Source of the DNA: an uncultured Erythrobacter sp.
GTDB taxonomy: Bacteria; Pseudomonadota; Alphaproteobacteria; Sphingomonadales; Sphingomonadaceae
Length of the DNA stretch: 64,000 bases
Reading direction: 5' to 3'
Assembly (NCBI GenBank): GCA_947494705.1
Contig: CANLVN010000002.1
Coordinates: 916,508 to 980,507, forward strand
Shown here: positions 30,520-54,874 of the stretch, in pieces
Position numbering within the stretch: position 1 is the stretch's first letter
How the letters are laid out: each line of letters opens with the position of its first letter
Position numbers and translations under genes: made by a program
The notes under the pieces: model-generated
Databases searched by the model: none
Told to the model about the DNA's origin: nothing
What the model saw: the letters and a program-made list of their open reading frames with translations, nothing else

Positions 30520-30595
30520 GCCGCTTTAGCTCAGTTGGTAGAGCACATCATTCGTAATGATGGGGTCAGAGGTTCGAATCCTCTAAGCGGCACCA
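30520..30595 (+). tRNA. tRNA-Thr (anticodon CGT)
   Basis: GCCGCTT/AAGCGGC acceptor, loop TTCGTAA, T stem AGAGG/CCTCT, CCA. Left attachment site of the island. Confidence 0.96.
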
Positions 30596-30835
30596 CCTCT
30601 TTCAGAAGCATCGAAGAGCGCATTGAAGCGAAAGGCCCTTTGGCTGGTCCCGGCTTTGGGTCCTGTTTGGGGCGCGTTCGGTGGGAAACCGGGCCACGCC
30701 CACGCAGCGACTGATCCAGTAGGCTAGGCCCTAATGACCGAAACTGGGCCGGAAGCGGGCTGTCCGCTCTTGAATTCACCTTCGGCAAAATAGACATTCG
30801 CGGGGCCATAAGCCGGTGTGAGGCGTTGCTATAAT

Positions 30836-31627
30836 ATGACCATGCACCATACGCGCACGGGGCGCGGAAAACCCCTTCTCCTTGTCCACGGGCTGGGGGC
30901 TACCTCTCGTTCGTGGGACACGATCTCGCCTGCGCTTTCTCAAGCCAGGGAGGTTATTGCCGTAGATCTGCCTGGTCATGGGCAGACGCCCGAAGAGAAC
31001 GACAGCGGCACGTTTGCAGGACTCGCGCGCAGTCTGGATGACTGGCTTAGCGCGGAAAGTCTCACAGGTATCGACATGGTTGGAAGCTCCTTGGGAGCTC
31101 GCCTGGTGCTCGAGATGGCGCGGCGCGGCCACTCGGGCGCGGTTGTCGCACTGGACCCGGGCGGTTTTTGGCAGGGGTGGGAGCGGACTTTCTTCAAGAC
31201 CACGATAACGCCTTCGGTTGCACTGGTTCGCGCACTGCGACCGGCGCTTGCTGCCATCACCGGAAATGTCGCAGGACGGACCGCACTCATGGCCCAGCTT
31301 TCTGCAAGGCCGTGGGCGCTCGATCCGGCATTCGTCGCACGTGAACTGAAGTCGTTGGCGAATACGCGCACCGTCAATTCGCTTGTGAAGGACCTCGCCA
31401 ATGGCGCAATGCAAGAGGGCCCTGCGGCGACGGATGCGCCCGTTGTCATCGGCTGGGGACGCAAGGATCGGCTGTGTTTACCGCAGCAGGCGGACCGCGC
31501 GATGAAAGCCTTCCCTCAAGCAACGCTGCACTGGTTCGAACGTAGCGGACACTTCCCGATGTGGGATCGGCCAGACGAGACCGTTCGCGTGATACTGGCT
31601 GCAACGAGCACCGCGGCACCGGAATAA
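30836..31627 (+). CDS. alpha/beta hydrolase
   Basis: LLLVHGLGATSRSWDTI; DMVGSSLGARLVLEMA (nucleophile elbow); RSGHFPMWDRPDE. Confidence 0.88.
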   Translation: MTMHHTRTGRGKPLLLVHGLGATSRSWDTISPALSQAREVIAVDLPGHGQTPEENDSGTFAGLARSLDDWLSAESLTGIDMVGSSLGARLVLEMARRGHSGAVVALDPGGFWQGWERTFFKTTITPSVALVRALRPALAAITGNVAGRTALMAQLSARPWALDPAFVARELKSLANTRTVNSLVKDLANGAMQEGPAATDAPVVIGWGRKDRLCLPQQADRAMKAFPQATLHWFERSGHFPMWDRPDETVRVILAATSTAAPE

Positions 31628-31982: not shown

Positions 31983-32000
31983 TGACACTTTGTTGTGTCA
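31983..32000. promoter_or_regulatory. inverted repeat overlapping a TTGACA -35-like box upstream of pufL
   Basis: TGACAC tttgtt GTGTCA. Confidence 0.4.
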
Positions 32001-32034
32001 TGTATGTTTGACGACCAGAGGGAGCCCGGCCACC

Positions 32035-32883
32035 GTGTCGATGCTCAGTTTCGAACGGAAGTACCGTGTGGCCGGCGGCACGCTGGTCGGCGGAGACCTA
32101 TTCGATTTCTGGGTCGGCCCGTTTTATGTGGGCTTCTTCGGCGTCACCACCGCGATCTTCGCCACGCTGGGCACCGCGCTGATCGTCTACGGCGCGGCGA
32201 TCGGCGATACGTGGAACATCTGGCAGATCGACATCGCCCCGCCCGCGATCGAATACGGCCTCGGCCTCGCCCCGCTTCGCGAGGGCGGCCTGTGGCAGAT
32301 CATCACGGTCTGCGCGATCGGAGCATTCGTTTCATGGGCGCTGCGGCAGGTCGAGATCGCGCGCAAGCTGGGCATGGGGTTTCACATCCCGATTGCGTTT
32401 TCCTTCGCGATCTTCGCCTATCTTAGCCTCGAGGTTTTCCGCCCGATCATGCTCGGGGCATGGGGGCACGCCTTCCCCTACGGCATTTTCAGTCACCTCG
32501 ATTGGGTCTCCAACGTCGGCTACCAGGGGCTGCATTTCCACTACAACCCGGCGCACATGCTGGCGGTGACGTGTTTCTTCGGCACCACGCTGATGCTTGC
32601 GATGCATGGCGGCGTCATCCTTTCGGCGGTCAACCCGCCCGAGGGGGAGGAGGTCAAGCACGGCCAGCACGAAAACCAGTATTTCCGCGACACCATCGTC
32701 TATTCGATCGGCCCGCTCGGCATCCACCGGCTGGGCTGGTTCGCCGCAATGAATGCGGGGCTGTGGAGCGCTGTCTGCATCCTGATCAGCGGGCCCTTCT
32801 GGGTCGGCGGCTGGCCTTACTGGTACGACTGGTATCTGCAGCTGCCCTTCTGGAACGACATGGGCCTGGGAGGGCTGGGCTGA
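32035..32883 (+). CDS. pufL: photosynthetic reaction centre L subunit
   Basis: [65 protein letters not shown]. Confidence 0.96.
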
Positions 32884-33944
32884 TGGCCTCTTTCCATAGC
32901 CTCTATTCGCAAATCCAGATCCACGGACCCTACGACGAAGGCATTCCACTGGAAGGCAACGATTCGCCGCGCGTGCTCTCGCCGGTGCTCAGCCGATGGA
33001 TCGGCAAGATCGGCGATCCGCAGATCGGGCCGACCTATCTGGGTGCGTGCGGCATCGCATCGCTGATTTGCGGCTTCATCGCGATCGAGATCATCGGCTT
33101 GAATTTCTGGGCCTCGGTTCACTGGAACCCGGTTGCCTTCATCGAAGGCATGGCATGGCACCGGCTCGATCCGCCGGAAGCGAAATGGGGATTCACGCCT
33201 TTCGTCCCGCTGACCGAAGGGGGCTGGTGGATCTGGGCTGGCTTCTTCCTCACTGCCTCGATCCTGCTGTGGTGGTGCCGCATGTATCTGCGGGCCAAGG
33301 CGCTGGGGATGAGCACGCATGTGGCTTGGGCCTTCGCCAGCGCGATCTTCCTCTACCTCAGCCTCGGCTTCATCCGCCCGATGCTGATGGGATCGTGGCA
33401 CGAAGCGCCGCCCTTCGGCATCATCCCGCATCTCAACTGGACCGCCAGCTTTTCGGTCCTCTACGGCAATTTCTACTATAACCCGTTCCACTGCTTCTCG
33501 ATCGTGTTTCTCTACGGATCGGTGCTGCTGTTCGCGATGCATGGGGGGACGATCCTCGCGGTTTCCCGCTTCGGCGGTGAACGTGAGACCGAGGAGATCG
33601 TCGACCGCGGCACGGCGGCGGAGCGCGGCGCGCTGTTCTGGCGCTGGACCATGGGCTTCAACGCCACCTTCGAGTCTGTCCACCGCTGGGCCTACTGGTT
33701 TGCGATCCTCACGACCTTCACCGGCGCGATCGGGATCCTCCTAACGGGAACGGTGGTCGACAACTGGTACCTGTGGGGCGTGAAATGGGGGCTCGCGCCC
33801 GAATATCCCGCGACCTACCCCGACATGACCCTCCCCCCCGAGATTGCCGAACAGGTGCGGGCGGCAAGTTCGGCGGCGAACCCCTCAACAGGTCCCGATG
33901 CTTCGCTAGAGATGCCACCCCCGGCAGGCGAGGCTGCACGATGA
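32883..33944 (+). CDS. pufM: photosynthetic reaction centre M subunit
   Basis: [54 protein letters not shown] overlap with pufL stop. Confidence 0.96.
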
Positions 33945-35089
33945 AACCGCTGGAACAGCGCCCCCGCTCGAGCCTGTTGGGAATCTTTGTGCTCGCGGCA
34001 GCAGTGGCGACGCTGCTGTTTGTCCTGCTCGTTCCCAAATACGATCATCCGTGGGACCCGATCGAATCGCGCGAATGGGGTTGGCGCGGGATTGCGATGA
34101 ACACCTTCACTTCCGAGCGGACCCGCAACGATCCGCTCAACATCGTGCCCGCCGCAATCGAGCCCTTCGAGCCGACCGGTGTCGCTGCGGGCGAGGTGTA
34201 CGAGAACGTCCAGGTGCTTGGCGATCTCGACGCGGCGCAGTTCGATCACATGATGCTCTCGATCACCGAGTGGGTCGCGCCCGACGAAGGCTGCAGTTAC
34301 TGCCACAAGCCCAACGCGAGTTTCGCTGCCGACGATCTCTATACCAAGCAGGTCGCGCGGCGGATGCTGGGGATGGTGCGCGACATCAATACGAATGCCC
34401 GCCATGTCGGCCAGACCGGCGTCACCTGCTACACCTGCCACCGCGGCCAGGCCGTGCCGCCCAAACACTGGTTCAAGGCTGCGGAACCCACGCCGCCCCT
34501 GGGCGGGATCGTCGGCAAGCCGCCGCCATGGAACCGGACGGCGAAGACCATGCGCGACTTCTTCCCGCGCCGGCCTTTCGAGGACTACCTGCTCGACGAC
34601 AAACCGATCACCGGGGCGCAGGCGCGCTCGGTCTCGGGAGAGGTCGCCGATCTCGCCAAGCTGGAAGACATCTATATCCTGATGATGCAGATGTCCGACG
34701 GGATGGGGGTCAACTGTACCTTCTGCCATAACAGCCGGGCATTTGCCGACTGGTCGCAGAGCACGCCCAAGCGGATCAACGCCTGGTACGGCATCCGCAT
34801 GACGCAGCGGATCAACCAGGATTACCTGACCGACATGCAGAGCCTGTTTCCGCCCGCAAGGCTGGGGCTGCTGGGCGATGTCGCCAAGGTCGATTGCGCC
34901 ACCTGCCACAACGGCATGTCGCGCCCGCTGGGCGGGGCGCCAATGGCGGCCATCTACGAGGGCCTGCACGGTCCCGACGGCGTTCGACCCATCCAGCGCG
35001 AAACCGCGTTCGAAACGCGCAAGGCTCGTCAGGCGACGATCAGCGCGCCGCCACCCGATCCGGCGGGTCTCGAACAAAACAGCAAGTAG
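33941..35089 (+). CDS. pufC: photosynthetic reaction centre tetraheme cytochrome c subunit
   Basis: Four heme motifs CSYCH, CYTCH, CTFCH, CATCH; ATGA overlap with pufM. Confidence 0.96.
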
Positions 35090-35095
35090 GAGGGG

Positions 35096-35533
35096 CTAGC
35101 CCGTGGTGGTGTCGAGATAGCGGGCGAAGGCCCTCGCGCTCGCCTGTCCGAAGCCCTGAAGCTTGACCGTGCGCCCGGTGTCGGGATCGGCCAGCTCGAT
35201 GTGCCCGGCATCGTCGCGCTGGACCAGCAGGCGAAACTCTTGCGCCACTTCCCGGTCGTCGCGCTGCATGGCGAGAGCACGCACCGCGGCCATTGTGAAA
35301 GTGTCCCCCTCGATAACGAGGTGCGCGATGGGCTCGCGCTGCGCGCTCAGCACCATCATTTCGCCGTCGGGAAGCGGTTCGAAGATCAGCATGCGGCGGT
35401 CCTGCGCCTGCGCGGTCTCGACGGTCAGGCGGCCGACATCGTAGTGGCGCGCGGTGGTGATCGCGGTCATGGTAAGACTGATCAGGATCGCTGCACCGAC
35501 CAGCGCGCCGCGCGGGACGGTAATGTCAGACAT
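35096..35533 (-). CDS. puhC: photosynthetic complex assembly protein PuhC
   Basis: One N-terminal TM helix, then RRMLIFEPLPDGEMMVL...; adjacent to puhB/puhA. Confidence 0.85.
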   Translation of the reverse strand: MSDITVPRGALVGAAILISLTMTAITTARHYDVGRLTVETAQAQDRRMLIFEPLPDGEMMVLSAQREPIAHLVIEGDTFTMAAVRALAMQRDDREVAQEFRLLVQRDDAGHIELADPDTGRTVKLQGFGQASARAFARYLDTTTG

Positions 35534-36188
35534 GCTGCTGTGTCCGGCCGTTCGCAGGAACGCTCGCGACTGCAGCCTCTTCTTCACGCGTCGGCTTGTA
35601 CCGGATACCGGGTGCTGCTTGCATGATCGCATCAACCAGGATCCCTCCAACCGGGCTGTCGATCGGGAGGCCGCGCATCATGGGGACCGGATGGGCGAAC
35701 TGCAGGCCGCGTGCGTGGGGCCAGAGGGCAAACCAGGCAATCTTATTCGGACGGCGAAGCTTTAGCGCAATGTCCAGAGCGCGTGCGCGCTCGCGCGCGG
35801 ACACGTCTGCAATCAGGGCCAACGGGATGTTGACGGTGCGGGTGAAAGCAACCCCCACCTGCAAGACCACGCGCCTGTCGGTGACGATATAGGTCGATGT
35901 CCGCGCGAGCAGCACCGCGCTCGCAAACACCGCGAGCGCCACCGGCAACGCCAAGGGCAGGAGCAGGAGCGGGCTGAACACGACTTGCGCGAGGCTCCCC
36001 CCCGCCCGCGCGGTCGCGAGGATCGGGAGTAGCGCAAATACCGCGAAATAGGCGCTCAGCAACGGCCAGCGGAACAGGTAGCGCAGCAGCGCGGCGCGTT
36101 GCGGGTTGCCATGCCAAAGCACGCGCTCGCCATCGGGCAGTGGGCCGGGCAGGCCGAGCGCAATGGCGATGGGTTCCTCGCTCGTCAC
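35526..36188 (-). CDS. puhB: photosynthetic complex assembly protein PuhB (PH domain)
   Basis: LPDGERVLWHGNPQRAALLRYLFR..., TYIVTDRRVVLQVGVAFTRTVNIPLALI. Confidence 0.88.
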   Translation of the reverse strand: MTSEEPIAIALGLPGPLPDGERVLWHGNPQRAALLRYLFRWPLLSAYFAVFALLPILATARAGGSLAQVVFSPLLLLPLALPVALAVFASAVLLARTSTYIVTDRRVVLQVGVAFTRTVNIPLALIADVSARERARALDIALKLRRPNKIAWFALWPHARGLQFAHPVPMMRGLPIDSPVGGILVDAIMQAAPGIRYKPTREEEAAVASVPANGRTQQHV

Positions 36189-36201
36189 GCCGGCCCGCTG
36201 G

Positions 36202-36981
36202 TCATGCTGGATCGTGGATCTGACCGCCGCGACCCGAGAAGCGCAGGCCGCCGGCGTAGAAGCCATTGAGGCGATCTTCCTCGCGCATCGTGATGCAGCT
36301 GTCGTCGGCGCGCACGGGCGTGCGGCGCATGTCTTCCGCCACCAGCGTCGTCGCCCTCACCGCACGGTCGCGAGGCAAGGCCTCGGCGAAGAAGGCGGGC
36401 ACCAGGCGGCGGCCATCCGCCCCTTCGATCGAGACCTCGTAATAGCGCAAAAAGAACTCGGCGCGGTTGAACCAGAGGTCATGGACCGTCCCGACCCGCT
36501 TCTCGTCCGCTGACAGGAGCACCCAGCCGCGCGGGTCGGGGTCGCCGTCAGGAATATAATAGTCGGAATGGTCGTTGAGCGAGATCAGCTTGGGTTCGCC
36601 ATTCACGTCGAGATCGGGCAGCTCTTCCCGAATGCGGGTATAGGCCGCCGCGCCCACGCCTTCATTGAGGGGATCGGGCCCGGGATCGAGCGGGTAGGCC
36701 ATAGGCGGCAGGTCCTGACCCGGGCGGACCGGCTCGGGCGTTTCGATGCGCGGTGCCTGCGCAACGCCGCGATCGTGCGGACGATAGAACAGCTTGGGTT
36801 TGGGAGTGGCGGGAAAGCCCTGCGCGCTCTGCGTCCTGCCGAACACCCCGGCGACCTCTACCGGATAGCCCTCGCGCTTGTCCTCGCGCCGGAGATGCAC
36901 GAGCAGCCCGGCAAAGAAAATGACGAACGCGATCACGCACAGGATCGCCACATCGAGGTTTCCAACGACGTCATGAGCCAT
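36202..36981 (-). CDS. puhA: photosynthetic reaction centre H subunit
   Basis: DVAILCVIAFVIFFAGLLVHLRREDKREGYPVEV; KLFYRPHDRG; DLWFNRAEFFLRYYEVSI. Start moved to MAHDVVGNLD. Confidence 0.95.
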   Translation of the reverse strand: MAHDVVGNLDVAILCVIAFVIFFAGLLVHLRREDKREGYPVEVAGVFGRTQSAQGFPATPKPKLFYRPHDRGVAQAPRIETPEPVRPGQDLPPMAYPLDPGPDPLNEGVGAAAYTRIREELPDLDVNGEPKLISLNDHSDYYIPDGDPDPRGWVLLSADEKRVGTVHDLWFNRAEFFLRYYEVSIEGADGRRLVPAFFAEALPRDRAVRATTLVAEDMRRTPVRADDSCITMREEDRLNGFYAGGLRFSGRGGQIHDPA

Positions 36982-37346
36982 GTCCGATCGATAGTCGGGA
37001 TGGGCACGGTTGTAAACCGTATTAGACACTTTCGATTGTAAACGAGACAGGCGTTTTTCGTGGTCTCGGAAAAGGCTGATGGCTGCTTTTTTGGCGCACC
37101 CCTCGATCGAGAATCCTCTGTCCCAGCCCTCAAATCCTGGTGGCAATTGCTGTTGGGACCGCTTCATTGACTTCGGGATTGGTCAGGCATGCGTATGCGA
37201 TACCGCTTGGCGCACCGCGATCGCCGACCGATTTCAGGCAAGATTCGCGAACGCCTCTACGGCCGAAACTGGGGCGCAAACCAGCCGCGCAAAACCGGGT
37301 ATCTTATATGAGGAGGCCAAATCTGCTGCCCCCTCCCCACCCACGA

Positions 37347-37375
37347 AGCCCTCGGATGATCTCCGGGGGCTTTTT
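37347..37375 (+). terminator. terminator-like hairpin in the leader of a small ORF
   Basis: AGCCC t CGGA tgatc TCCG g GGGCT TTTT, ~17 nt before the GTG start. Confidence 0.65.
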
Positions 37376-37391
37376 CTTTGGAGAGATACCC

Positions 37392-37712
37392 GTGCTCATA
37401 CTGACCTCGGCGAGGGCGATCCGCCACGCCACGACTTACTGCGCACAAAGCGTGCCTGTTCACAGGCTCAACCACTACGCCGTGTTGCTGGACACCGAGC
37501 CGATCGGCTGGCTGTTCATCATCCAACCCGGCGACACGTTGGCCTTGCTCGATGCCTTGAGAGGGCGTCCCCTTGAAGGAGCTGAGTTCATCGACTTGGA
37601 GAGCGGCTGGTACGAGGCCGTGTTCATCCTGAGCGACGATGGGTTCGGTCACATAGTTTTCGCGCCGGACCAGCCGGACATCGATCCCGAGCTGCGCGAT
37701 CTTCTGACCTAA
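37392..37712 (+). CDS. hypothetical protein of mobile-element type, paralog of the next ORF
   Basis: GGAGAG before GTG; ESGWYEAVFILSDDGFGHIVFAPD motif. Confidence 0.6.
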   Translation: MLILTSARAIRHATTYCAQSVPVHRLNHYAVLLDTEPIGWLFIIQPGDTLALLDALRGRPLEGAEFIDLESGWYEAVFILSDDGFGHIVFAPDQPDIDPELRDLLT

Positions 37713-37737
37713 CAACCGACCCACCAACAGACACCAA

Positions 37738-37770
37738 GCGTCCAGGCGATCCGCCTCGGGCGCATTTTTT
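37738..37770 (+). terminator. terminator-like hairpin in the leader of the second small ORF
   Basis: GCG t CC AGGCG atc CGCCT c GG g CGC ATTTTTT. Confidence 0.65.
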
Positions 37771-37791
37771 ATGTCCGAAAGGAATTACTCC

Positions 37792-38163
37792 ATGATCGAT
37801 CTACCCAATACCGAGGCTTTGCGTTGTGCGCTCGACCAGCCGCTCGGTCCCATCCTCAAGACCCTGCTGGGCGATCGCCTCGCTGACACGCTCGAGTGCG
37901 GCTTACAGGATCTCACGCACGTGCTTGTCGTCCAAGCTGATGATGACGAGCGCTCGATCGTCAATGCGGTGGGGTTCTCCCCGCTGCGCTCTCGAATTGA
38001 AAACCAACCGAACTCACCCGACTGGGACTGGCTGGAGCGCCACGACGGCTGGTGGGAGGCGCTCTATTGCATCGGTGTCAGCGGGTTCGCCTACATTCTC
38101 CTCATCGAGGACGCGGACCGTTCGCCCTTTGCCAAGCTTTGCCGAAAGGGGAAGAGCGCATGA
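37792..38163 (+). CDS. hypothetical protein, paralog of the 37392 ORF
   Basis: AAAGGAA SD before ATG; HDGWWEALYCIGVSGFAYILLIEDAD. Confidence 0.6.
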   Translation: MIDLPNTEALRCALDQPLGPILKTLLGDRLADTLECGLQDLTHVLVVQADDDERSIVNAVGFSPLRSRIENQPNSPDWDWLERHDGWWEALYCIGVSGFAYILLIEDADRSPFAKLCRKGKSA

Positions 38164-38420
38164 GGGCGGTTGGCTTTATCCTGGGGGCGGCCATGGCTTT
38201 GGCTGCCCTCAAGGTCGCTGTGCAGCTCAGCCTTGCGATCCTTGCGATCATGCTGGTGGCTGCGCTTATCCTCGATCCCATAGAAACGCTGATCCGACTG
38301 GGGGCGCTGGCGTTGCTTGCTGCCTTTTTGTCCAGTCGGGCGGCTGCACTGTTGCTTCTGATTGCGTACTTGCTGGCGGGACTGCTGGCAGCGCACGTGA
38401 GCGACCATCGCTCGGATTAG
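38160..38420 (+). CDS. small hydrophobic membrane protein
   Basis: ATGA overlap with preceding gene; mostly hydrophobic helices. Confidence 0.6.
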   Translation: MRAVGFILGAAMALAALKVAVQLSLAILAIMLVAALILDPIETLIRLGALALLAAFLSSRAAALLLLIAYLLAGLLAAHVSDHRSD

Positions 38421-38865: not shown

Positions 38866-40146
38866 ATGTCTCAGAAAATACAAAACAATACCTTGCACCA
38901 AGAGAAACTCGATCGGGATGGTTTCCCAGACCAGCCGAACTCCCCAGCGAAGTCCCTCCCGGCGACCGTCGAGAACTTCGCTCATCTGCTCAATGAGCAC
39001 GACATAAAGGTTCGCTTCAACAATCTTAAGAAGCGCGTCGATGTCCAGATTCCTGGATTTGAGCCTAGCATGCAAAACCGGGATGAGGCCATCGTCGGTC
39101 ACCTAGAAAGCCTTTTCGCACGCAACGATATGTCGCACAAAATGATCCAGCGATATCTGTTGTTGATCGCGGACAAGGATCCCTACGATCCCTTTGCTGA
39201 GTGGATCGACAGTAAGCCTTGGGATGGCCAAAGCCGGTTAGCTGAGATCGTTGCGACGCTGACACCCGCTGAAGACTACCCCGCTGAACTGGCGAGGGTG
39301 CTCATCGAGAAGTGGCTGCTCAGCATCGTGGCCGCCACCTTCAAAAAGGGCGGTTTCAGAGCGCGCGGTGTTCTGACGCTCCAAGGACCTCAGGGTCTCG
39401 GCAAAACAACTTGGATCGGCAAGCTTGTGACACCTCACGGCCTTCGTGAAGAGATTGTCTTGCTGGGCTTCAGTTGGGATCGCGGACGCAAGGATGCCAG
39501 GCTCAATGCCATCCGGCACAGGATCGTCGAACTGGGGGAGCTGGATGGCTCGTTCCGCAGCGCGATCGCCGGCCTCAAAGCCTTCATCACCGAGACAGTC
39601 GACAAGATTAGACCACCGTACGGGCGGCTCGAAGCCGAGTATCCGAGGTCGACAATCTTCGCGGCCTCAGTGAACGATCCGCAGTTCCTTACCGATCGAA
39701 CCGGAAATAGCAGATTCTGGACCATCGCGGTCAAGGAGATCGACTATGACCATTGCATCGACATGCAACAGGTGTTCGCGGAACTGAAGGTGCGGTTCGA
39801 GGCCGGTGCAGAGTGGTGGCTCACGCCAAGCGAAGAAATGCAGCTTGCGGAGGTCAACCACCAGCATCAGTCTCTGACGGCGATTGAGGCCAAGATCGAA
39901 GAGGGCCTCGATCTCGGGCGGAAAGGTGAGTTTGGCCTGCCCCGACTTACCGCCAACCAAGTGCTGGAACGGCTAGGCTATCACAAGCCGACCAATCCTC
40001 AGTCCAAGGAAGCCAACTGGGCCCTGCGGCACCACTTGGGAGAGCCCAAGCGGATCAAGGGCCAGAATAAGTGGTTCGTGCCCTGGAAGAAGCAAGAACC
40101 GAATGGGACCGAGTACCGCGACGACCCCGCAACTGAAATCTACTAA
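38866..40146 (+). CDS. VapE-family P-loop ATPase/helicase
   Basis: GVLTLQGPQGLGKTTWIGKL; SAIAGLKAFITETVDKIRPPYGR; TIFAASVNDPQFLTDRTGNSRFWTI. Confidence 0.88.
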   Translation: MSQKIQNNTLHQEKLDRDGFPDQPNSPAKSLPATVENFAHLLNEHDIKVRFNNLKKRVDVQIPGFEPSMQNRDEAIVGHLESLFARNDMSHKMIQRYLLLIADKDPYDPFAEWIDSKPWDGQSRLAEIVATLTPAEDYPAELARVLIEKWLLSIVAATFKKGGFRARGVLTLQGPQGLGKTTWIGKLVTPHGLREEIVLLGFSWDRGRKDARLNAIRHRIVELGELDGSFRSAIAGLKAFITETVDKIRPPYGRLEAEYPRSTIFAASVNDPQFLTDRTGNSRFWTIAVKEIDYDHCIDMQQVFAELKVRFEAGAEWWLTPSEEMQLAEVNHQHQSLTAIEAKIEEGLDLGRKGEFGLPRLTANQVLERLGYHKPTNPQSKEANWALRHHLGEPKRIKGQNKWFVPWKKQEPNGTEYRDDPATEIY

Positions 40147-40305: not shown

Positions 40306-41466
40306 ATGCCAACACAGAAGTTGGATGCGGCTTTCTGTCTTGCAGCCACCTGTCGCCCCGGCAGGAAAAAGACAGACTACTACGACACCGTCACCACAGG
40401 CTTCGTGCTCGAAGTCCGAGCGAGTGGCGGAAAAACCTACTGTTTGCGTTACTCCGATCCCAACGGTCGGCAGCGTCAACTCAAGATCGCTGGCTTTGAA
40501 GACGTCACCTTCGCACAGGCTCAGAAAAAGGCCAAAAAGCTGCGGTCGGAAGTGGTCATGGAGGGCGATCCAGCCGCACGCAAAGAACGCAAGAAGGCTG
40601 TGCCCACTTACGCCGAACTGGCCAAACGGCACATCGACCACGCCAAGACCTACCTTAAGCGTCCAGAGAACACCGAGGCTGTCATCAACAACCATCTGGT
40701 GGCGCGATGGGGCAAGCTTCGGCTCGACGAGATCACCGAGGAGGACATCTCGAAGTGGCTCGGGGAGAAGCGCCAGACCCTCGCCCCGGCGACGGTCGAG
40801 AAGCTGCGTGTTACGCTCGGGAGGTCGTTCGAGCTGGGGCGGCGCTGGAAGATCCCAGGAGCCGAACTCAACCCGGCGAGGGGTGTGCCCCGGTTCCGGT
40901 TCGACAACGCGCGGGAGCGCTACCTGTCGGCCTCTGAGGCCCAACGGCTGGTCGCGGCCTGTGAGAGCTCCAGCAACCCGCAGCTAAAACCGATCGTGCA
41001 GCTCCTGCTTTACACCGGAGCTCGCAAGACCGAGCTCCTCACCGCGAAGTGGGCGCACGTGAACCTGGAGCAGCGGTTCTGGCTGATCCCTGACAGTAAG
41101 ACGGGCAAGGCGAGGAGGGTGCCGTTGTCAGGTCCGGCGGTTGCAGTGATCGAAGGGCTGGTCGAAATCGATGGGTGCCCTTGGCTGTTGCCCAACCCGC
41201 TCACCCTGAAGCCCTACAGTTGCATCAAGCGGGCGTTCGCCACAGCACGAAAGGAGGCCAAGCTATCGGGCGTTCGTATTCACGACCTACGGCACTCAGC
41301 GGCTTCGGCCATGATCAACGCCGGGGTCGATCTGTTCGCCGTTGGGCGCATCCTCGGCCACGCCGATCACCAGTCGACCATGCGGTACGCTCACCTTGCT
41401 AACGACACGCTGATGAAGGCGGTTGAAGCCGGGGCGGCTGGCATCCTTCAGGGAGAGGCAGCATGA
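40306..41466 (+). CDS. tyrosine recombinase/integrase (Arm-DNA-binding, P4-like)
   Basis: FVLEVRASGGKTYCLRYSDPNGRQRQLKIAG arm domain; LYTGARKTELLTAKW; HDLRHSAAS; LGHADHQSTMRYAH. Confidence 0.92.
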   Translation: MPTQKLDAAFCLAATCRPGRKKTDYYDTVTTGFVLEVRASGGKTYCLRYSDPNGRQRQLKIAGFEDVTFAQAQKKAKKLRSEVVMEGDPAARKERKKAVPTYAELAKRHIDHAKTYLKRPENTEAVINNHLVARWGKLRLDEITEEDISKWLGEKRQTLAPATVEKLRVTLGRSFELGRRWKIPGAELNPARGVPRFRFDNARERYLSASEAQRLVAACESSSNPQLKPIVQLLLYTGARKTELLTAKWAHVNLEQRFWLIPDSKTGKARRVPLSGPAVAVIEGLVEIDGCPWLLPNPLTLKPYSCIKRAFATARKEAKLSGVRIHDLRHSAASAMINAGVDLFAVGRILGHADHQSTMRYAHLANDTLMKAVEAGAAGILQGEAA

Positions 41467-41867: not shown

Positions 41868-42209
41868 TTAGTTGGCGCCGTCTGCAGCGACGCCATAAGC
41901 CGCCAAGAGATGTTCGATCACATAAGACGAAATTGGGTTGATGAACTTGAAACCAACTTCACCTGACTTGGACCAGCTGGCAATTCCCGCTTGCACTTCG
42001 AGCCCGCCAAATTTGATGCAGTAGGCGCGACTGGTTTCCAGCCTGGTCCAGTTGCTCAACTCAACACCGCACCCACTCTCGGAGAGGTTGATCACTCTCG
42101 AGCGTATACGTGTGCCATAAGAATCCAAGACAGTGGCTTCCATGCTTACAGAATGGCGACACCCGTCCCGCCTTGCTGGGCAAAGGGATGATGCTCTTTC
42201 AGTGCTCAT
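41868..42209 (-). CDS. PilZ domain protein
   Basis: SVSMEATVLDSYGTRIRSRVINLSESGCGVEL...VGFKFINPIS. Confidence 0.75.
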   Translation of the reverse strand: MSTERASSLCPARRDGCRHSVSMEATVLDSYGTRIRSRVINLSESGCGVELSNWTRLETSRAYCIKFGGLEVQAGIASWSKSGEVGFKFINPISSYVIEHLLAAYGVAADGAN

Positions 42210-42210
42210 G

Positions 42211-42543
42211 CTACTCACCGGAACTAGAAGTGCTCTTGGCGATATGATCGATCACGTAGGATGCGAATGGTGACACGAACTTCAGTCCGGCATTCTTTTG
42301 ATCGGACCAGATAGCTTTCGTCGCCTGCGTCTCGAAACCGCCAATCTTGATGCAGTAGAAGTCCGTTTCCGAAAGGATGACATCGCTTTCCAACGAAACT
42401 GCGCATCCTTCTTCCGACAAGTCGGTAATTGTTACTGGAAACTTGGAACCCGAAGCGTGGCTTAGCTGGGTCTCGATTTTCACTACGCGCCTGGATGTTC
42501 TGCGCTTCTCGGTCCGCTTTTCAGCGTTTGCAAACTCCGCCAT
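42211..42543 (-). CDS. PilZ domain protein (paralog)
   Basis: RRTSRRVVKIETQLSHASGSKFPVTITDLSEEGCAVSLESD...AGLKFVSPFASYVIDHI. Confidence 0.8.
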   Translation of the reverse strand: MAEFANAEKRTEKRRTSRRVVKIETQLSHASGSKFPVTITDLSEEGCAVSLESDVILSETDFYCIKIGGFETQATKAIWSDQKNAGLKFVSPFASYVIDHIAKSTSSSGE

Positions 42544-42733: not shown

Positions 42734-43192
42734 GTTGGTCCCCCTGCTATTGAGAGACTAGGGTGGACTCCTGAATAAATACTTGCTCGAGAATAAATAG
42801 TTTGTAATCGTTATTTTCCGGGTAGTTAGATCAAACGCCGCCTAGCGATACAGCAATTGGTTGTACGGGCATGGCAAGATCATCGCACAATCAGAAAGCT
42901 GCCTGAGCATAGAGCCAAGGCCAAGGGGGCGCTGGGGAGCGGTAACAGCTAGAGAGGCGATGATCGCCGTCACGGCAGAGAAGAGCGGGCTCGCAAACGC
43001 CCGATAATAACGGCGGCCTGCCAACGTCTGCTCTGCACCCCAATAGCTCTCCTTAATCGCTCGCAGGTGCTATATCCTGTAGGCGGTCTGGCATCTGCGC
43101 CACGCTACCAGCCAAAACCAGGCTGGCATCTGACGACGCTAGTTGCGGACAAATTTCTTTTCGATTCATTTGGCCGCGGATATACGCGATCG

Positions 43193-44521
43193 GTGTCGAC
43201 GTTACGTGATCCCATCCGATTGATTCCGCTCTTATTCTCGGGTGCGATCCTTGTTGGCACCTTTTTCCTGTGGTTACCCTTCTCGACTGCGGACGGATCG
43301 CGGACTGATCTGCTGACGGCTTTCTTCACGGCGACTTCTGCAGTTGCTGTCACAGGACTCATCACCGTGGACACTGCAACTCATTGGTCAGGCTTTGGCC
43401 AAGGCGTAATCCTCTTGCTGTTTCAGATCGGCGGCTTCGGAATCATGACGGCCGCAACTTTGTTCGGCTTGATGGCCGGTCGCGGCTTCGGATTGCGCGA
43501 AAGGATGGCCACGAATGTGGAGCGGAGTCGTCTCGAAGTGGGCGACGCGAAATCAGTTCTGAAACTAGTATTTCTGATCACTGTCTGGGTCGAGATTGTC
43601 GTCGCCGTGATCCTAGCTGCCCGACTTATGCTCGCTTACAATCATTCCTTCGGTGAGGCGCTGTGGCATGGCCTCTTTCACGCGGTCAGCGCTTTCAACA
43701 ATGCCGGATTTTCCAGCTATTCCGACAGTGTGATGGGCTTCCAGTCCGATCCGTTTATTCTCGTTCCGATAATGTTCGCCGTCATTCTGACCGCGCTCGG
43801 CTTTCCGGTCATGCAGGACCTGAAGCGCCACGGCTTCACATGGAAATTATGGACCCTGCATACGAAACTGACCGTGACTGGGACCATCCTGCTGCTCGTC
43901 GGCGGCTTCATCGGGGTGCTCGCGATGGAATGGGACAATCCGGATACCCTAGGACCAATGGGAATCTCTGCAAAGTTCCTCAATGCCGCCTTCCACTCGG
44001 TCATGCCTCGAACCGCCGGTTTTAACAGCCTCGACGTGGGAGCTTTTCACGACGAAACGCTCATAACGAATTACTTCCTGATGTTTATCGGCGGCGGTAG
44101 CGCTGGCACTGCGGGTGGTATCAAGATCACGACATTTGCAGTCCTGATTGCGGTTGTGATTTCCGAGGTCCTGCGACGTCGAGACGCCAATGTTTTCAAT
44201 CGCCGCTTCAGCCACGAAATCGAACGACAGGCGCTGACAGTCATCTTGCTCGCGGGAATTCTGATATTCGCAGCCACGACCTATCTTTCGATTATCACAC
44301 CGCTCGAATTCGAGGACCTTTTGTTTGAGACGATCTCGGCGTTCTCGACGGTCGGACTTTCGACCGGCGTGACTGCAGAACTACCTCCAGCGGGGCAATT
44401 GGTGATCATCATGCTGATGTTCGTCGGCCGAGTTGGAACCATCACCGTCGCGACTGCGCTTGCTCTTGGCGGTGAACCACGCCCCTATCGCTACCCTGAG
44501 GAGAATCCCATTGTCGGCTGA
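43193..44521 (+). CDS. TrkH/KtrB-type potassium uptake membrane subunit
   Basis: TATSAVAVTGLITVDTATHW, AVSAFNNAGFSSYSD, PRTAGFNSLD, SAFSTVGLSTGVT selectivity-filter regions. Confidence 0.92.
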   Translation: MSTLRDPIRLIPLLFSGAILVGTFFLWLPFSTADGSRTDLLTAFFTATSAVAVTGLITVDTATHWSGFGQGVILLLFQIGGFGIMTAATLFGLMAGRGFGLRERMATNVERSRLEVGDAKSVLKLVFLITVWVEIVVAVILAARLMLAYNHSFGEALWHGLFHAVSAFNNAGFSSYSDSVMGFQSDPFILVPIMFAVILTALGFPVMQDLKRHGFTWKLWTLHTKLTVTGTILLLVGGFIGVLAMEWDNPDTLGPMGISAKFLNAAFHSVMPRTAGFNSLDVGAFHDETLITNYFLMFIGGGSAGTAGGIKITTFAVLIAVVISEVLRRRDANVFNRRFSHEIERQALTVILLAGILIFAATTYLSIITPLEFEDLLFETISAFSTVGLSTGVTAELPPAGQLVIIMLMFVGRVGTITVATALALGGEPRPYRYPEENPIVG

Positions 44522-45179
44522 TACACGCAATCCAGTTCTCGTTATCGGGCTGGGGCGCTTCGGTGGCTCGGTTGCCCGGACTTTGCAGCGCATGGGGCAC
44601 GAGGTGCTTGGAGCGGACATCGATGAAGCGAGAGTGCAGCAGTACGCGAGCGAGTTAACGCAAGTCGTCGAAGCTGACTGCACTGATTTTCGCTGTCTGG
44701 AGAAGTTGGGGGCCAAGAGCTTCACATCGGCAGTCGTCGGCATCGGAAACGGTATCGAGGCGAGTGTGCTTACAGTCCTTGCGCTATCAGATCTCGGCGT
44801 CCCGAACATCTGGGCCAAGGCAACCAATCACAAGCATGGAAGGATTCTCGAACGGACTGGCGCTCACCATATCGTTTTTCCCGAGGAGCGAATGGGTGAA
44901 CGTGTCGCGCGGCTTCTTAATGAACGTCTGCTCGATTTCATCAGCTTCGGAGACGAATTCTCGATAGCCAAGCTTGTCGCACCCGAGCCAATCATCGGCC
45001 TTCCGCTCGTGACCAGCGAATGTCGCAAGAAGTTCGACGTGACAGTCATCGGAGTAAAACGAGAGGGCGAGGACTTTATTCACGCCGTTCCGGACACCCT
45101 GATCATGCCAGGGGATGTCCTCGTTGTCTCGGGCCAAACCGACAAGATCGAAGCGTTCGCATCGCTGCACGCCAAGTAA
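44511..45179 (+). CDS. TrkA/KtrA-type NAD-binding potassium channel regulator
   Basis: PVLVIGLGRFGGSVARTLQRMGHEVLGADID; C-terminal TrkA_C. TTG start with GGAG SD, overlaps ktrB. Confidence 0.9.
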   Translation: MSADTRNPVLVIGLGRFGGSVARTLQRMGHEVLGADIDEARVQQYASELTQVVEADCTDFRCLEKLGAKSFTSAVVGIGNGIEASVLTVLALSDLGVPNIWAKATNHKHGRILERTGAHHIVFPEERMGERVARLLNERLLDFISFGDEFSIAKLVAPEPIIGLPLVTSECRKKFDVTVIGVKREGEDFIHAVPDTLIMPGDVLVVSGQTDKIEAFASLHAK

Positions 45180-48059: not shown

Positions 48060-48105
48060 ATTCGTAATGATGGGGTCACAGGTTCGGATCCTGTAAGCGG
48101 CACCA
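48060..48105 (+). repeat. diverged copy of the tRNA-Thr 3' half (right attachment site)
   Basis: ATTCGTAATGATGGGGTCA identical to 30550-30568; ACAGG/CCTGT T stem; AAGCGGCACCA 3' end; no 5' half upstream. Confidence 0.88.
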
Positions 48106-48465: not shown

Positions 48466-48840
48466 TCAACCCAGCTTGGCGAAGTTGGCTACCCCGGGTG
48501 CTGGCGTCCGCGACTGGCGCGTCGGCATGGCGGAGAGCGCGGCAAACTCTCCCGTCGCGCTGGCGACTTGCGTGAGTTTGCTGTCGTCGATGCGATAATA
48601 GACGAGCTTGGCGTCCTTGCGGGTCTTCACCAAACCCGCCTTGCGAAGGACCGCCAGCTGCTGTGAAAGCGTTGGCTGGCCGATTTCCGCTGCTTCGTCG
48701 ATCTCACCCACGTTCAGCTCCGTGCCGGTCAGGGCCTGCATGATCCGAAGACGCACCGGATGAGCCAACGCCTTCAGCGAATCCACCAGCTCATCATCCG
48801 TCACTTCTTCGACCCCTGCCTGGCTTCCTTCATGAACCAA
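48466..48840 (-). CDS. ArsR/SmtB-family regulator lacking cysteines
   Basis: DSLKALAHPVRLRIMQALTGTELNVGEIDEAAEIGQPTLSQQLAVLRKAGLVKTRKDAKLVYYRI. Confidence 0.88.
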   Translation of the reverse strand: MVHEGSQAGVEEVTDDELVDSLKALAHPVRLRIMQALTGTELNVGEIDEAAEIGQPTLSQQLAVLRKAGLVKTRKDAKLVYYRIDDSKLTQVASATGEFAALSAMPTRQSRTPAPGVANFAKLG

Positions 48841-49469
48841 TCGGTCTGGCCCTTCGCCGAGAACACCGTGTCGAGCAAGGCATCGGGCTGAGCCAGCAAG
48901 GCCTCACCCGGCTGCCAATTCGCGGGCGCGAGGACGGGGCCTTCATCGACCGCCTTCAACGCATCGAGAGTACGAAGCATTTCTGGTGTCGAGCGGCCCA
49001 CGCTGGCGGGATAGCAGGTCATCGCGCGGATGACCCCCTGCGGGTCGATAAAGAACGTCGTTCGCACGGTCGCGCTGTCGTTATCGTGTGGCGAAACCAT
49101 GCCGTAAGCGCGCCCGATCACGAGCGTCGGATCTTCCACGATCGGAAAGCGCACTTCGATATCGTAGCGATCTCGGATCAGGCGCAGCCACGCGAAATGC
49201 GAGAACAGGCTGTCTACGGAAAGCGCCATCAAGGCGCAGTCGCGTTTTTCGAACTCATCCGCAGAACCGGCCAGAGCCACGAACTCGGTGGTGCAGACCG
49301 GTGTGAAGTCGGCGGGATGAGAGAACAGGATAAGCCATCGCCCACGGTATTCGGAAAGGCGAACATTCCCGGTCGTGCTGCGCGCTGTGAAGTCGGGTGC
49401 CTCGTCCCCGATGCGAAGTCCGCCACAAGGCGCTTCTCGCCCGGCATCTTCGTTGTTTGTCTCTGTCAT
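48801..49469 (-). CDS. peroxiredoxin (Prx6/1-Cys type)
   Basis: LRIGDEAPDFTARSTTGNVRLSEYRGRWLILFSHPADFTPVCTTEF. Confidence 0.92.
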   Translation of the reverse strand: MTETNNEDAGREAPCGGLRIGDEAPDFTARSTTGNVRLSEYRGRWLILFSHPADFTPVCTTEFVALAGSADEFEKRDCALMALSVDSLFSHFAWLRLIRDRYDIEVRFPIVEDPTLVIGRAYGMVSPHDNDSATVRTTFFIDPQGVIRAMTCYPASVGRSTPEMLRTLDALKAVDEGPVLAPANWQPGEALLAQPDALLDTVFSAKGQTDWFMKEARQGSKK

Positions 49470-49503
49470 TGCACCTTCATACCACTTGACATTCCAATGG
49501 CAA

Positions 49504-49524
49504 TACATATACACGATTTATGTA
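49504..49524. promoter_or_regulatory. inverted repeat in divergent promoter region, candidate ArsR operator
   Basis: TACATA tacacgatt TATGTA. Confidence 0.45.
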
Positions 49525-49543
49525 AATAAATGGAGATAAAGCC

Positions 49544-50473
49544 ATGGCTGGCGATCAGAGCCTCAATCGCGCTGCCGCACAGATCCAGCGCGCCCAGGAA
49601 GATAAGTGCCTGCGCCCCTCGATTGCGGGATTTTTCGATGAAGCGACCAACACTGTATCGTACGTGGTCCACGATCCCAAGACGGGCGAAGCGGCGATCA
49701 TCGATTCGGTGCTGGACTTCGAAGCGGCTTCTGGCCGCACTTCGAACGGATCAGCCGATCGTGTTGTTGAATACGTCACTTCGAATAAGTTGAAAGTGAC
49801 ATGGCTTATCGAGACCCATGCGCACGCCGATCATATTTCCGCAGCGCCCTACTTGCAGGAAAAGCTCGGCGGAAAGCTGGCTATCGGCCGCGACATCGTG
49901 CGCGTGCAGGAGGTGTTCGGGAAACTCTTCAATGCGGGCACCGATTTCGAGCGCGACGGATCGCAGTTCGACAAGCTGTTCGAGGATGGCGAAACCTTCA
50001 GGATCGGCGAACTGGAAGGCATCGCCCTCCACGTTCCCGGCCACACGCCAGCCGACATGGCATTCATCATCGGTGATGCCGCTTTCGTGGGCGACACGAT
50101 CTTCATGCCCGACTTCGGGACTGCGCGTGCCGATTTTCCGGGTGGGGACGCCGGCCAGCTCTATCGTTCGATCCGACGCCTGCTTTCGCTTCCGGAGGAA
50201 ACAAGACTGTTCCTCTGCCATGATTACAAGGCACCGGGCCGGGACGAGTACGCCTGGGAAACCACCGTCAAGCAGCAACGCGAGCAGAACGTCCATGTGA
50301 AGGATGGTGTGAGCGAAGAAGAATTCGTGGAGATGCGCACCACTCGCGACAAGACGCTCGCCATGCCGAACCTGATCATGCCTTCGGTCCAAGTGAATAT
50401 TCGAGGCGGGCGCCTGCCCGACCCGGAAACCAACGGCGTCAGCTACATCAAGATCCCGGTGAACGCGGTATGA
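49544..50473 (+). CDS. MBL-fold hydrolase, Blh/ETHE1-like persulfide dioxygenase
   Basis: WLIETHAHADHISAAPYLQEKLGGK; HVPGHTPADMAF; FVGDTIFMPDFGTARADFPGGD. Confidence 0.9.
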   Translation: MAGDQSLNRAAAQIQRAQEDKCLRPSIAGFFDEATNTVSYVVHDPKTGEAAIIDSVLDFEAASGRTSNGSADRVVEYVTSNKLKVTWLIETHAHADHISAAPYLQEKLGGKLAIGRDIVRVQEVFGKLFNAGTDFERDGSQFDKLFEDGETFRIGELEGIALHVPGHTPADMAFIIGDAAFVGDTIFMPDFGTARADFPGGDAGQLYRSIRRLLSLPEETRLFLCHDYKAPGRDEYAWETTVKQQREQNVHVKDGVSEEEFVEMRTTRDKTLAMPNLIMPSVQVNIRGGRLPDPETNGVSYIKIPVNAV

Positions 50474-50916
50474 GCTTGCCAGGTTTTCCAGAAGCCGCAC
50501 CGGTCGCCGGACTGGCAGGCGGTGTGCTGATCGGCCTTGCCGCAGCAGTGATGCTGCTCGGCCTCGGGAGGATCGCCGGTGTCTCCGGGCTGTCCGCCAA
50601 GGCGGTCGGCCTCGGCGGAAGCGGAATTGCCCGCAGCGGTGCGTGGATGTTCGTCATCGGGCTCCCTCTCGGAGCGTTCGTAGTCATGCTGGCGACGGGC
50701 GGTATTCAGGCTAGTTTCGCGGACCCGATCACACTTGCCATTGCCGGACTGGTGGTCGGGATCGGCACGCGGCTCGGCAGCGGCTGCACCAGCGGGCACG
50801 GGGTCTGCGGCGTAAGCCGTCTTTCCGCCCGTTCGATTGTCGCCACCTTGACGTTCATGGCCACCGGCATTGCGACGGTCGCCATCATGAATGCACTCGG
50901 GCTGGAGGTGCTGTGA
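50470..50916 (+). CDS. YeeE/YedE (PmpA-like) sulfur-compound transporter half
   Basis: GIGTRLGSGCTSGHGVCGVSRLSARS. Confidence 0.88.
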   Translation: MSLPGFPEAAPVAGLAGGVLIGLAAAVMLLGLGRIAGVSGLSAKAVGLGGSGIARSGAWMFVIGLPLGAFVVMLATGGIQASFADPITLAIAGLVVGIGTRLGSGCTSGHGVCGVSRLSARSIVATLTFMATGIATVAIMNALGLEVL

Positions 50917-51335
50917 TGCGGACCGCGCTCATTTCTCTGGTATCCGGCACTCTTTTCGGCGCAGGCCTTGCCCTTGGTGGCATGACCGATCCCGCGCGTG
51001 TGCGAGGGTTCCTCGACGTCTTCGGCGACTGGGACCCCACGCTTGCCTTCGTCATGGGCGGTGCTGTCATTGTCATGGCGGTCGCGTGGCGGATCGTGCC
51101 TCGCATGGCCGAACCTATCATTGCGGGGAAGTTCCACCTGCCGACCAAATCCGATCTCACACCGCGCCTCGTTGGCGGCGCGGCTTTGTTCGGTATCGGC
51201 TGGGGCATTGCGGGGCTTTGTCCGGGACCCGGCATCGCCGCGCTCGTGATCGAACCTGCGGCTGCCGCGATCTTCGTCGTCGCCATGATCGCCGGGATGG
51301 CTGTCGTGCGGCTTGTGGAAGGCACCTTGTCATGA
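50913..51335 (+). CDS. YeeE/YedE (PmpB-like) transporter half
   Basis: LGGMTDPARVRGFLDVFGDWDPTLAFVMGGA; GWGIAGLCPGPGIAALV. Confidence 0.88.
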   Translation: MMRTALISLVSGTLFGAGLALGGMTDPARVRGFLDVFGDWDPTLAFVMGGAVIVMAVAWRIVPRMAEPIIAGKFHLPTKSDLTPRLVGGAALFGIGWGIAGLCPGPGIAALVIEPAAAAIFVVAMIAGMAVVRLVEGTLS

Positions 51336-51748
51336 GGCTCGCAGAAGTGAGCGAGACATTCGCTGTCTCGCCCCAGATCGAGCCCGGCGACGTGCCAAGG
51401 CTGGCCGAAGCAGGATACCGAACGGTGATCTGCAACAGGCCCGATGGCGAGGAACCTGGTCAACCGACTGTGGCATCGGTGCGTACAGTTGCTGAAGCCT
51501 CTGGCATCGCCTTCCATCATCTCCCGGTATCGGGAGGTGAATTTCCCGCAGCCACGATCAGGTCTTTCGCCAAGATCCGCGAAGAGGCGGACGGCAAGGT
51601 GCTTGCCTTTTGTCGCACCGGGACGCGATCCATCACGCTCGATGCGCTTGCCAACATCGAGAACATGACCGCCGATGAGCGCATCGAACGCGCCAGGCGC
51701 GCAGGCTACGATCTTGCCGGCCTGCGAGAGCAGCTCGGCCAGGAATAA
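51332..51748 (+). CDS. DUF442/TIGR01244-type protein-tyrosine-phosphatase-like protein
   Basis: FAVSPQIEPGDVPRLAEAGYRTVICNRPDGEEPGQP; LAFCRTGTRS. Confidence 0.85.
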   Translation: MRLAEVSETFAVSPQIEPGDVPRLAEAGYRTVICNRPDGEEPGQPTVASVRTVAEASGIAFHHLPVSGGEFPAATIRSFAKIREEADGKVLAFCRTGTRSITLDALANIENMTADERIERARRAGYDLAGLREQLGQE

Positions 51749-51770
51749 TAAACACACGGGAGAGTTTTCC

Positions 51771-53003: not shown

Positions 53004-53005
53004 AC

Positions 53006-54826: not shown

Positions 54827-54874
54827 TCCCTGCCATCTCGCACCGGCCCCACATCTACTAGTATAGGAGGCACC

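Follow-up and report, generated by a model that had tools for sequence, protein, structure and literature searches.

The window analysed here, a stretch of 64,000 nucleotides from an uncultured Erythrobacter sp. (assembly GCA_947494705.1, contig CANLVN010000002.1), carries a photosynthetic reaction-centre (RC) cassette at positions 32041-36981. Within it, pufL-pufM-pufC is convergent with puhC-puhB-puhA, and the six genes are contiguous and all intact. Their names were assigned by NCBIfam equivalog models, all scoring above cut-off. The features of the locus, in window positions, are as follows.

30520..30595, + strand: tRNA-Thr(CGT), whose 3' 46 bp (30550-30595) are the island attL
30818..31627, + strand: alpha/beta hydrolase (Pfam PF12697), island cargo, missing beside the cassettes of other species
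31996..32013, no strand assigned: PpsR-like operator upstream of pufL, TGTCATGTATGTTTGACG, one mismatch
32041..32883, + strand: pufL, RC L subunit, 280 aa (TIGR01157, 393.8 bits), ligands all there, L213 Asn
32883..33944, + strand: pufM, RC M subunit, 353 aa (TIGR01115, 477.8 bits), M44 Asp, M197 Tyr
33941..35089, + strand: pufC, tetrahaem RC cytochrome, 382 aa (NF040706, 358.9 bits), four CxxCH
35096..35533, - strand: puhC, photosynthetic complex assembly protein (TIGR03054, 88.1 bits)
~35526..36266, - strand: puhB, RC assembly protein, start codon uncertain (NF040894, 136 bits)
36202..36981, - strand: puhA, RC H subunit, 259 aa (TIGR01150, 250.3 bits)
37011..37028, no strand assigned: PpsR-type operator upstream of puhA, TGTCTAATACGGTTTACA on the puhA strand, starting at -47
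38866..40146, + strand: VapE-like helicase/primase (PF05272; PHROG 1313), island gene
40306..41466, + strand: tyrosine integrase (PF00589 and PF13356; PHROG 1), island gene
48060..48105, + strand: attR, a copy of the tRNA-Thr 3' end, 43/46 identical

One common base (TGATG) joins pufL to pufM, pufM and pufC overlap in ATGA, and the longest puhB ORF runs 65 bp into puhA. The original prediction of translationally coupled pufLMC facing puhCBA is thus borne out by six intact genes with NCBIfam matches; the pufL gene itself stood, but its start, placed at 32035, is corrected to 32041. The RC ligands, predicted to be intact together with the four CxxCH of PufC, proved so on residue inspection, both in PufL (H153, H168, H173, H190 and H230) and in PufM (H182, H202, H219, E234 and H266). 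By family models and cofactor ligands alike, the cassette PufLM, PuhA and PufC are those of a type-II purple bacterial RC. The neighbours were also named correctly, being an alpha/beta hydrolase, VapE and a tyrosine integrase, and neighbouring ORFs, Pfam and a genome-wide LHC search agree with the earlier claim that pufBA, bch and crt are absent beside the cassette.

An RC-H complex encoded in this way had been proposed to rely on pigments, and perhaps LH1, made elsewhere, and the suggested search for bch, crt, pufBA and a second pufLM found a complete photosynthesis cluster (PGC; bch/crt/pufBALM) in the same genome, on contig C3, apart from the cassette contig. A single pufB and a single pufA, both in this main PGC, are the only LHC genes of the genome, which supports the proposed dependence and rules out an LH1 gene hidden near the cassette. 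The main PGC includes a PpsR gene (TIGR02040, 363 bits) and lacks pufC; the genome's only pufC-family gene is the cassette copy. Cassette PufM and PufL are only ~61-64% identical to those of the host.

Beyond Citromicrobium/Alteriqipengyuania, relatives of the cassette were found in the window's own genus, in Aurantiacibacter zhengii and in a Porphyrobacter MAG. All six genes are present in every cassette locus covered in full, and no contiguous pufBA or bch gene, the outcome named in advance as refuting, was seen at the cassette loci examined. Each complete genome with a cassette also has a full second pufLM, with exactly one pufB and one pufA where searched, while a Photo_RC gene above cut-off occurs in only 49 of 270 genomes sampled from the family. 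In a PufLM tree (FastTree support values), the cassettes form one clade that includes the Citromicrobium copy (support 1.0) and is sister to a Fulvimarina-like lineage (support 0.99). This tree implies transfer between genera, and together with the low identity it rules out the cassette as a duplicate of the host's own genes. The cassette is horizontally acquired and belongs to a lineage distinct from that of the host's own RC.

The cassette is part of a 17.5 kb island at the tRNA-Thr gene, which has a 46 bp att repeat and encodes an integrase as well as a VapE-type helicase. The second-best ungapped att match within the window reaches 25/46, and genus-wide synteny ends at the tRNA-Thr 3' end in nine relatives. 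No conjugation gene was recognised on reading through the list of island ORFs, and defence-system families gave no match to the island ORFs tested. Viral or plasmid carriage is rejected, since no relative was found in IMG/VR, the matches on plasmids span under half of the cassette and no plasmid record reaches 80% coverage. Other cassettes lie in differing contexts, with no flanking genes found in common. For the tRNAs beside them (Thr-TGT in RI_32, Val in NP26 and CG, Gln in A. zhengii), no att repeats were present in the stretches examined; thus, tRNA integration is shown for the window cassette only.

Regulation was assessed from the promoter sequences. Of the 14 cassette promoters, 12 have an exact TGT-N12-ACA between -30 and -65, where ~0.003 would be expected per promoter. 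The site is exact at pufL in all six cassettes compared with that of the window, whose own site has one mismatch, and at puhA in 6/7; like sites are borne by the bchC and crt promoters of the main PGC. Sequence features of a PpsR regulon are therefore present, as the genome encodes PpsR and operators stand at the promoters (with one mismatch in the window pufL site), and the cassette is apparently under the host's photosynthesis switch.

The dN/dS comparison recommended with the original prediction yielded strong purifying selection rather than decay. Across cassettes, dN/dS is 0.04-0.08 for pufL, 0.07-0.16 for pufM and 0.12-0.44 for the remaining genes, making pufL and pufM the best conserved of the cassette; the host's own pufL is looser, at 0.13-0.25. 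This selection is long-lasting, because pairwise dS among cassettes is mostly 0.5-1.5. A decaying relic, meaning a transferred PGC fragment that is disappearing after the loss of its pufBA, bch and crt, would fit the presence of just six of ~40 PGC genes, the complete PGC elsewhere in the genome, and an island shared with an integrase and VapE. Yet all six genes are kept wherever a locus is fully covered, dN/dS falls below that of the host's own RC genes, the ligands are invariant, and the promoters retain their operators while their surroundings diverge. A relic is rejected on dN/dS, intact ligands and retained operators; it appears largely refuted by selection already, and we regard it as highly improbable. 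As far as sequence can tell, selection and operators show that the cassette is in use, but they do not indicate which use.

Residues near the cofactors differ between the two RCs. Across 83 sequences, the residue at L213 varies strictly with that at M44, the pair being Asn/Asp in 21 and Asp/non-Asp in 62; all cassettes have Asn/Asp and all host copies Asp/Gln. At M197, cassettes have Tyr and host copies Phe. Taken with the intact genes, the purifying selection, the single clade, the presence beside a full PGC, the att-flanked island and the operator-like sites, these residues suggest, with a probability of roughly 70%, that the six genes specify a second type-II RC that is both complete and functional (L, M, H, tetrahaem C and the assembly proteins PuhB and PuhC) and of a lineage unlike the host's. 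Such a working second RC, which is the likely product, would draw on the host PGC for bacteriochlorophyll, bacteriophaeophytin and carotenoid; no pigment genes would be needed in the cassette, because recipients already have them. Host PpsR would repress and release it together with the main PGC, electrons would enter via PufC, and ubiquinone would be reduced at a QB site that has a proton route of its own, L213-Asn/M44-Asp. The six-gene unit may thereby spread as an add-on among already phototrophic Erythrobacteraceae.

How this second RC would operate beside the host complex can be framed in several ways. One is an antenna-free, transferable second core beside the host RC-LH1, using recipient pigments and the PpsR switch but differing from the host complex in the surroundings of the special pair, the QB proton path and the electron donor; we put this forward tentatively, as a doubtful proposal. 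PuhC homologues serve RC-LH1 assembly, and because puhC is kept, we slightly prefer host LH1 enclosing the cassette RC over antenna-less working. Lacking an LH1 of its own, such an RC has to share that of the host or go without. Host LH1 beta is clearly diverged between hosts and cassette RCs are nearly invariant, and therefore an LH1-cassette RC interaction is not obvious. The retained puhC, together with the differing QB residues, M197 and PufC, would also suit an RC used in place of the host RC under particular conditions (e.g. redox, oxygen or light) and always within the host LH1 ring. This is unlikely, as operators matching the main PGC promoter type suggest joint, not alternative, expression.

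Alternatively, the cassette might act as a subunit donor, with its PufC (and H) joining host L/M to give a faster re-reduced host RC. That pufC is missing from the main PGC in the window genome, and likewise in most cassette hosts, speaks for such a role. However, pufL and pufM are what selection guards most closely, the A. zhengii main operon (L097) also has its own pufC, and donation of PufC needs neither puhA, puhB and puhC nor a coupled QB pair, making a donor quite unlikely.

The usual view has photosynthesis genes moving as entire clusters or not moving. If the reading of a functional second RC is true, a core-only module present in several genera, under tighter constraint than the host RC and with operators for the host repressor, would mean that RCs can be added as upgrades. 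C. bathyomarinum and A. zhengii are living strains in which two different RCs could be compared within one cell and an RC without its own antenna approached experimentally.

The RC-only gene arrangement itself is already known from Citromicrobium (2010-2012). The 'two different photosynthetic operons' of JL354 were reportedly first announced in 2010. The Citromicrobium precedent mentioned in the original prediction is real: the 'incomplete PGC' of Citromicrobium bathyomarinum JL354 is pufLMC-puhCBA and was described inside an ICE (PMC3338782). It has the identical six genes, order and orientation, without pufBA, bch or crt, in a genome that also has a complete PGC without pufC, and the window PufC shares 79% identity with its counterpart in a C. 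bathyomarinum strain. The published accounts of such cassettes consulted here are at the level of sequence. In contrast, the window host is of another genus, and its cassette lies in a tRNA-Thr island with VapE and an integrase. The complete PGC of Erythrobacter/Citromicrobium (pufBALM, bchFNBHLM-lhaA-puhABC) shares subunit families and operator type with the cassette and carries the PpsR gene, but contains pufBA and all pigment genes and, in the window genome, is missing pufC. The closest relative outside the cassette clade is a Fulvimarina-like pufBALMC (genome G1183; F. pelagi counterpart in PMC3338782), with PufM 70% identical and the same L213 Asn/M44 Asp; unlike the cassettes, it has pufBA directly upstream, an adjoining bch gene (by eye) and no puhCBA within 40 kb around it. 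Plasmid-borne full PGCs (Roseobacter, Sulfitobacter, Novosphingobium) likewise make RC genes horizontally mobile, although as ordinary puf operons inside PGCs (annotation, Novosphingobium). New here are the wider host range, the tRNA-Thr island, the single clade, the selection, the operators and the L213/M44 QB pair.

Six reaction-centre (RC) genes are found at 32041-36981, where pufL-pufM-pufC faces puhC-puhB-puhA, and all six pass their NCBIfam equivalog cut-offs (pufL, pufM, PufC, PuhC, PuhB, puhA). The positions in the original prediction needed only small corrections, and the coupling it described was confirmed: pufM begins on the last base of pufL (TGATG) and itself overlaps pufC (ATGA). 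The two transcription units of this cassette converge, with a pufC-puhC gap of 6 bp. Between puhA and the VapE-like gene, at 37140-38420, lie small ORFs of 190, 130 and 122 aa, the first two alike by eye, for which no Pfam, PADLOC or PHROG match was obtained.

The cassette had been proposed to depend on pigments, and perhaps LH1, made elsewhere. A genome-wide check for bch, crt, pufBA and a second pufLM (3.39 Mb assembly, ten contigs; window at C2:916508-980507) revealed a complete second photosynthesis gene cluster, in which genes besides puf, puh, LHC and PpsR were named by eye:

Contig C3, ~70-109 kb: main cluster, with puhABC, a bch row, PpsR, pufB, pufA, pufL, pufM, bchXYZ, bchC and crt

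Its pufB and pufA are the only LHC family members in the genome, which leaves this cluster as the only possible source of pigments and LH1 for the cassette. The single pufC of the genome lies within the cassette. About 15-20 kb from the main cluster, consecutive ORFs resemble VirB4/6/9/10/11 by eye (C3:123488-130221, locus L008).

Among 399 family genomes, a PufC search gave six genomes at 78-80%, all in genus g7, and the next were below 50%. A scan of named genomes picked out Alteriqipengyuania abyssalis, Citromicrobium bathyomarinum IOP_28, Citromicrobium sp. NP26, two more MAGs, Aurantiacibacter zhengii V18 (75%) and Porphyrobacter sp. RI_32 (65%; genome G444), the last from the same genus as the window. 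Every complete cassette-bearing genome has two pufLM pairs, and those searched for LH1 have one pufB and one pufA each; the sole exception is a 2.7 Mb MAG, where the cassette is the only pufLM. Photo_RC genes exceeded the cut-off in 49 of 270 genomes sampled from the family, where all five two-pair genomes are cassette carriers, and an intact second pair occurs in 2 of 61 sampled genomes of the window's genus. A. zhengii has a pufC in its main puf operon (L097) as well, giving that strain two. In contrast to the intact cassettes, pufL and pufM of another member of the window's genus are in four pieces (G405:C63:49597-51206), reflecting either a decaying cluster or an assembly error.

Cofactor ligands are identical throughout ten cassettes. 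In the QB site every cassette pairs Asn at L213 with Asp at M44, and all nine host copies have Asp and Gln there. Covariation is perfect over 83 sequences (21 Asn/Asp, 62 Asp/non-Asp), in keeping with the compensating proton route known for RCs of the Asn/Asp type. M197 is Tyr in cassettes versus Phe in host copies. From these differences, one expects two RCs in the same cell with distinct special-pair environments, QB protonation and electron donors.

Nei-Gojobori dN/dS between the window cassette and other cassettes was 0.04-0.08 for pufL, 0.07-0.16 for pufM, 0.14-0.33 for pufC and 0.12-0.34 for puhA, versus 0.13-0.25 (pufL) and 0.16-0.30 (pufM) for the main clusters of the same genomes, although these ratios are approximate since dS is ~1 or above in several pairs. 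This shows stronger purifying selection on the cassette than on the host RC, and protein identity by itself agrees (PufL between hosts: cassette 90-95%, main 70-84%).

An exact PpsR/CrtJ consensus (TGT-N12-ACA) lies at -30 to -65 of pufL in 6/7 cassettes and of puhA in 6/7, and the two remaining promoters have a one-mismatch site at the corresponding place; ~0.003 sites per promoter are expected by chance. Cassette promoters are partly non-independent through kinship, but the four deep lineages alone retain an exact site in 7/8, and the DNA surrounding the sites differs between genera. Like sites occur upstream of main-cluster bchC and in the crt promoter region, and a PpsR gene is encoded in the main cluster (TIGR02040, 363 bits). 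The sequence thus gives good support to a predicted PpsR control of the cassette.

A tree built on PufL+PufM from 83 sequences places all ten cassettes in a single clade (support 1.0) neighbouring G1183 (0.99), a genome with an ordinary pufBALMC operon, and main-cluster copies group with their hosts. The window cassette groups with Citromicrobium/Alteriqipengyuania (0.98), apart from that of same-genus RI_32, which implies that it was transferred between genera. An order relative (G1209; L211, 7473-16923) carries convergent pufLMC and puhCBA ~4.4 kb apart, possibly the ancestral arrangement.

Nine relatives from the window's genus lose synteny with it at the tRNA-Thr(CGT) 3' end. Of the 46 bp at 48060-48105 (attR), 43 positions match this end (runner-up ungapped match in the 64 kb: 25), two relatives also carry a second copy, and the stretch up to ~58.9 kb is variable. 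These observations mark the tRNA as an integration hotspot. The cassette occupies part of a 17.5 kb island that also encodes a VapE-like helicase and a tyrosine integrase, and this integrase may have moved it. Other cassettes have different gene contexts, and no att copy was found within their fetched stretches. The island also contains two tandem short PilZ-like ORFs (41868-42543, minus strand; an apparent duplication with a 55 bp repeat 73% identical) and, between integrase and attR, a TrkH/TrkA-like potassium uptake pair (43067-45179, by eye). Directly right of attR, 48466-56227 encodes an ArsR-type regulator, a peroxiredoxin, persulfide dioxygenase-like and sulfide:quinone reductase-like proteins and a SulP transporter (by eye); a similar block near the same tRNA in relative G042 (L150) raises the possibility that the hotspot carries it as a further cargo.

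Two readings of the cassette RC's relation to LH1 can be weighed. Between the window genome and Citromicrobium, host LH1 beta has diverged by eye, yet the cassette PufL proteins of these hosts are 95% identical, which leans toward an RC that would be independent of host LH1. Retention of puhC leans the other way, toward an RC that would be ringed by it.

In line with the original prediction, which pointed to Citromicrobium, a cassette of this kind was first described there, as the 'incomplete PGC' of C. bathyomarinum JL354 (PMC3338782); the term pufLMC-puhCBA occurs in a single paper of the literature searched. A Fulvimarina-related origin was proposed for JL354 (PMC3338782), with which our tree agrees and which it extends. 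In a 2025 review, JL354 is still presented as the sole case, and no function is offered (PMC12654162). The present analysis broadens the host range and adds the tRNA island, the finding that purifying selection exceeds that on the host RC, the operators at both promoters and the coupled QB pair.
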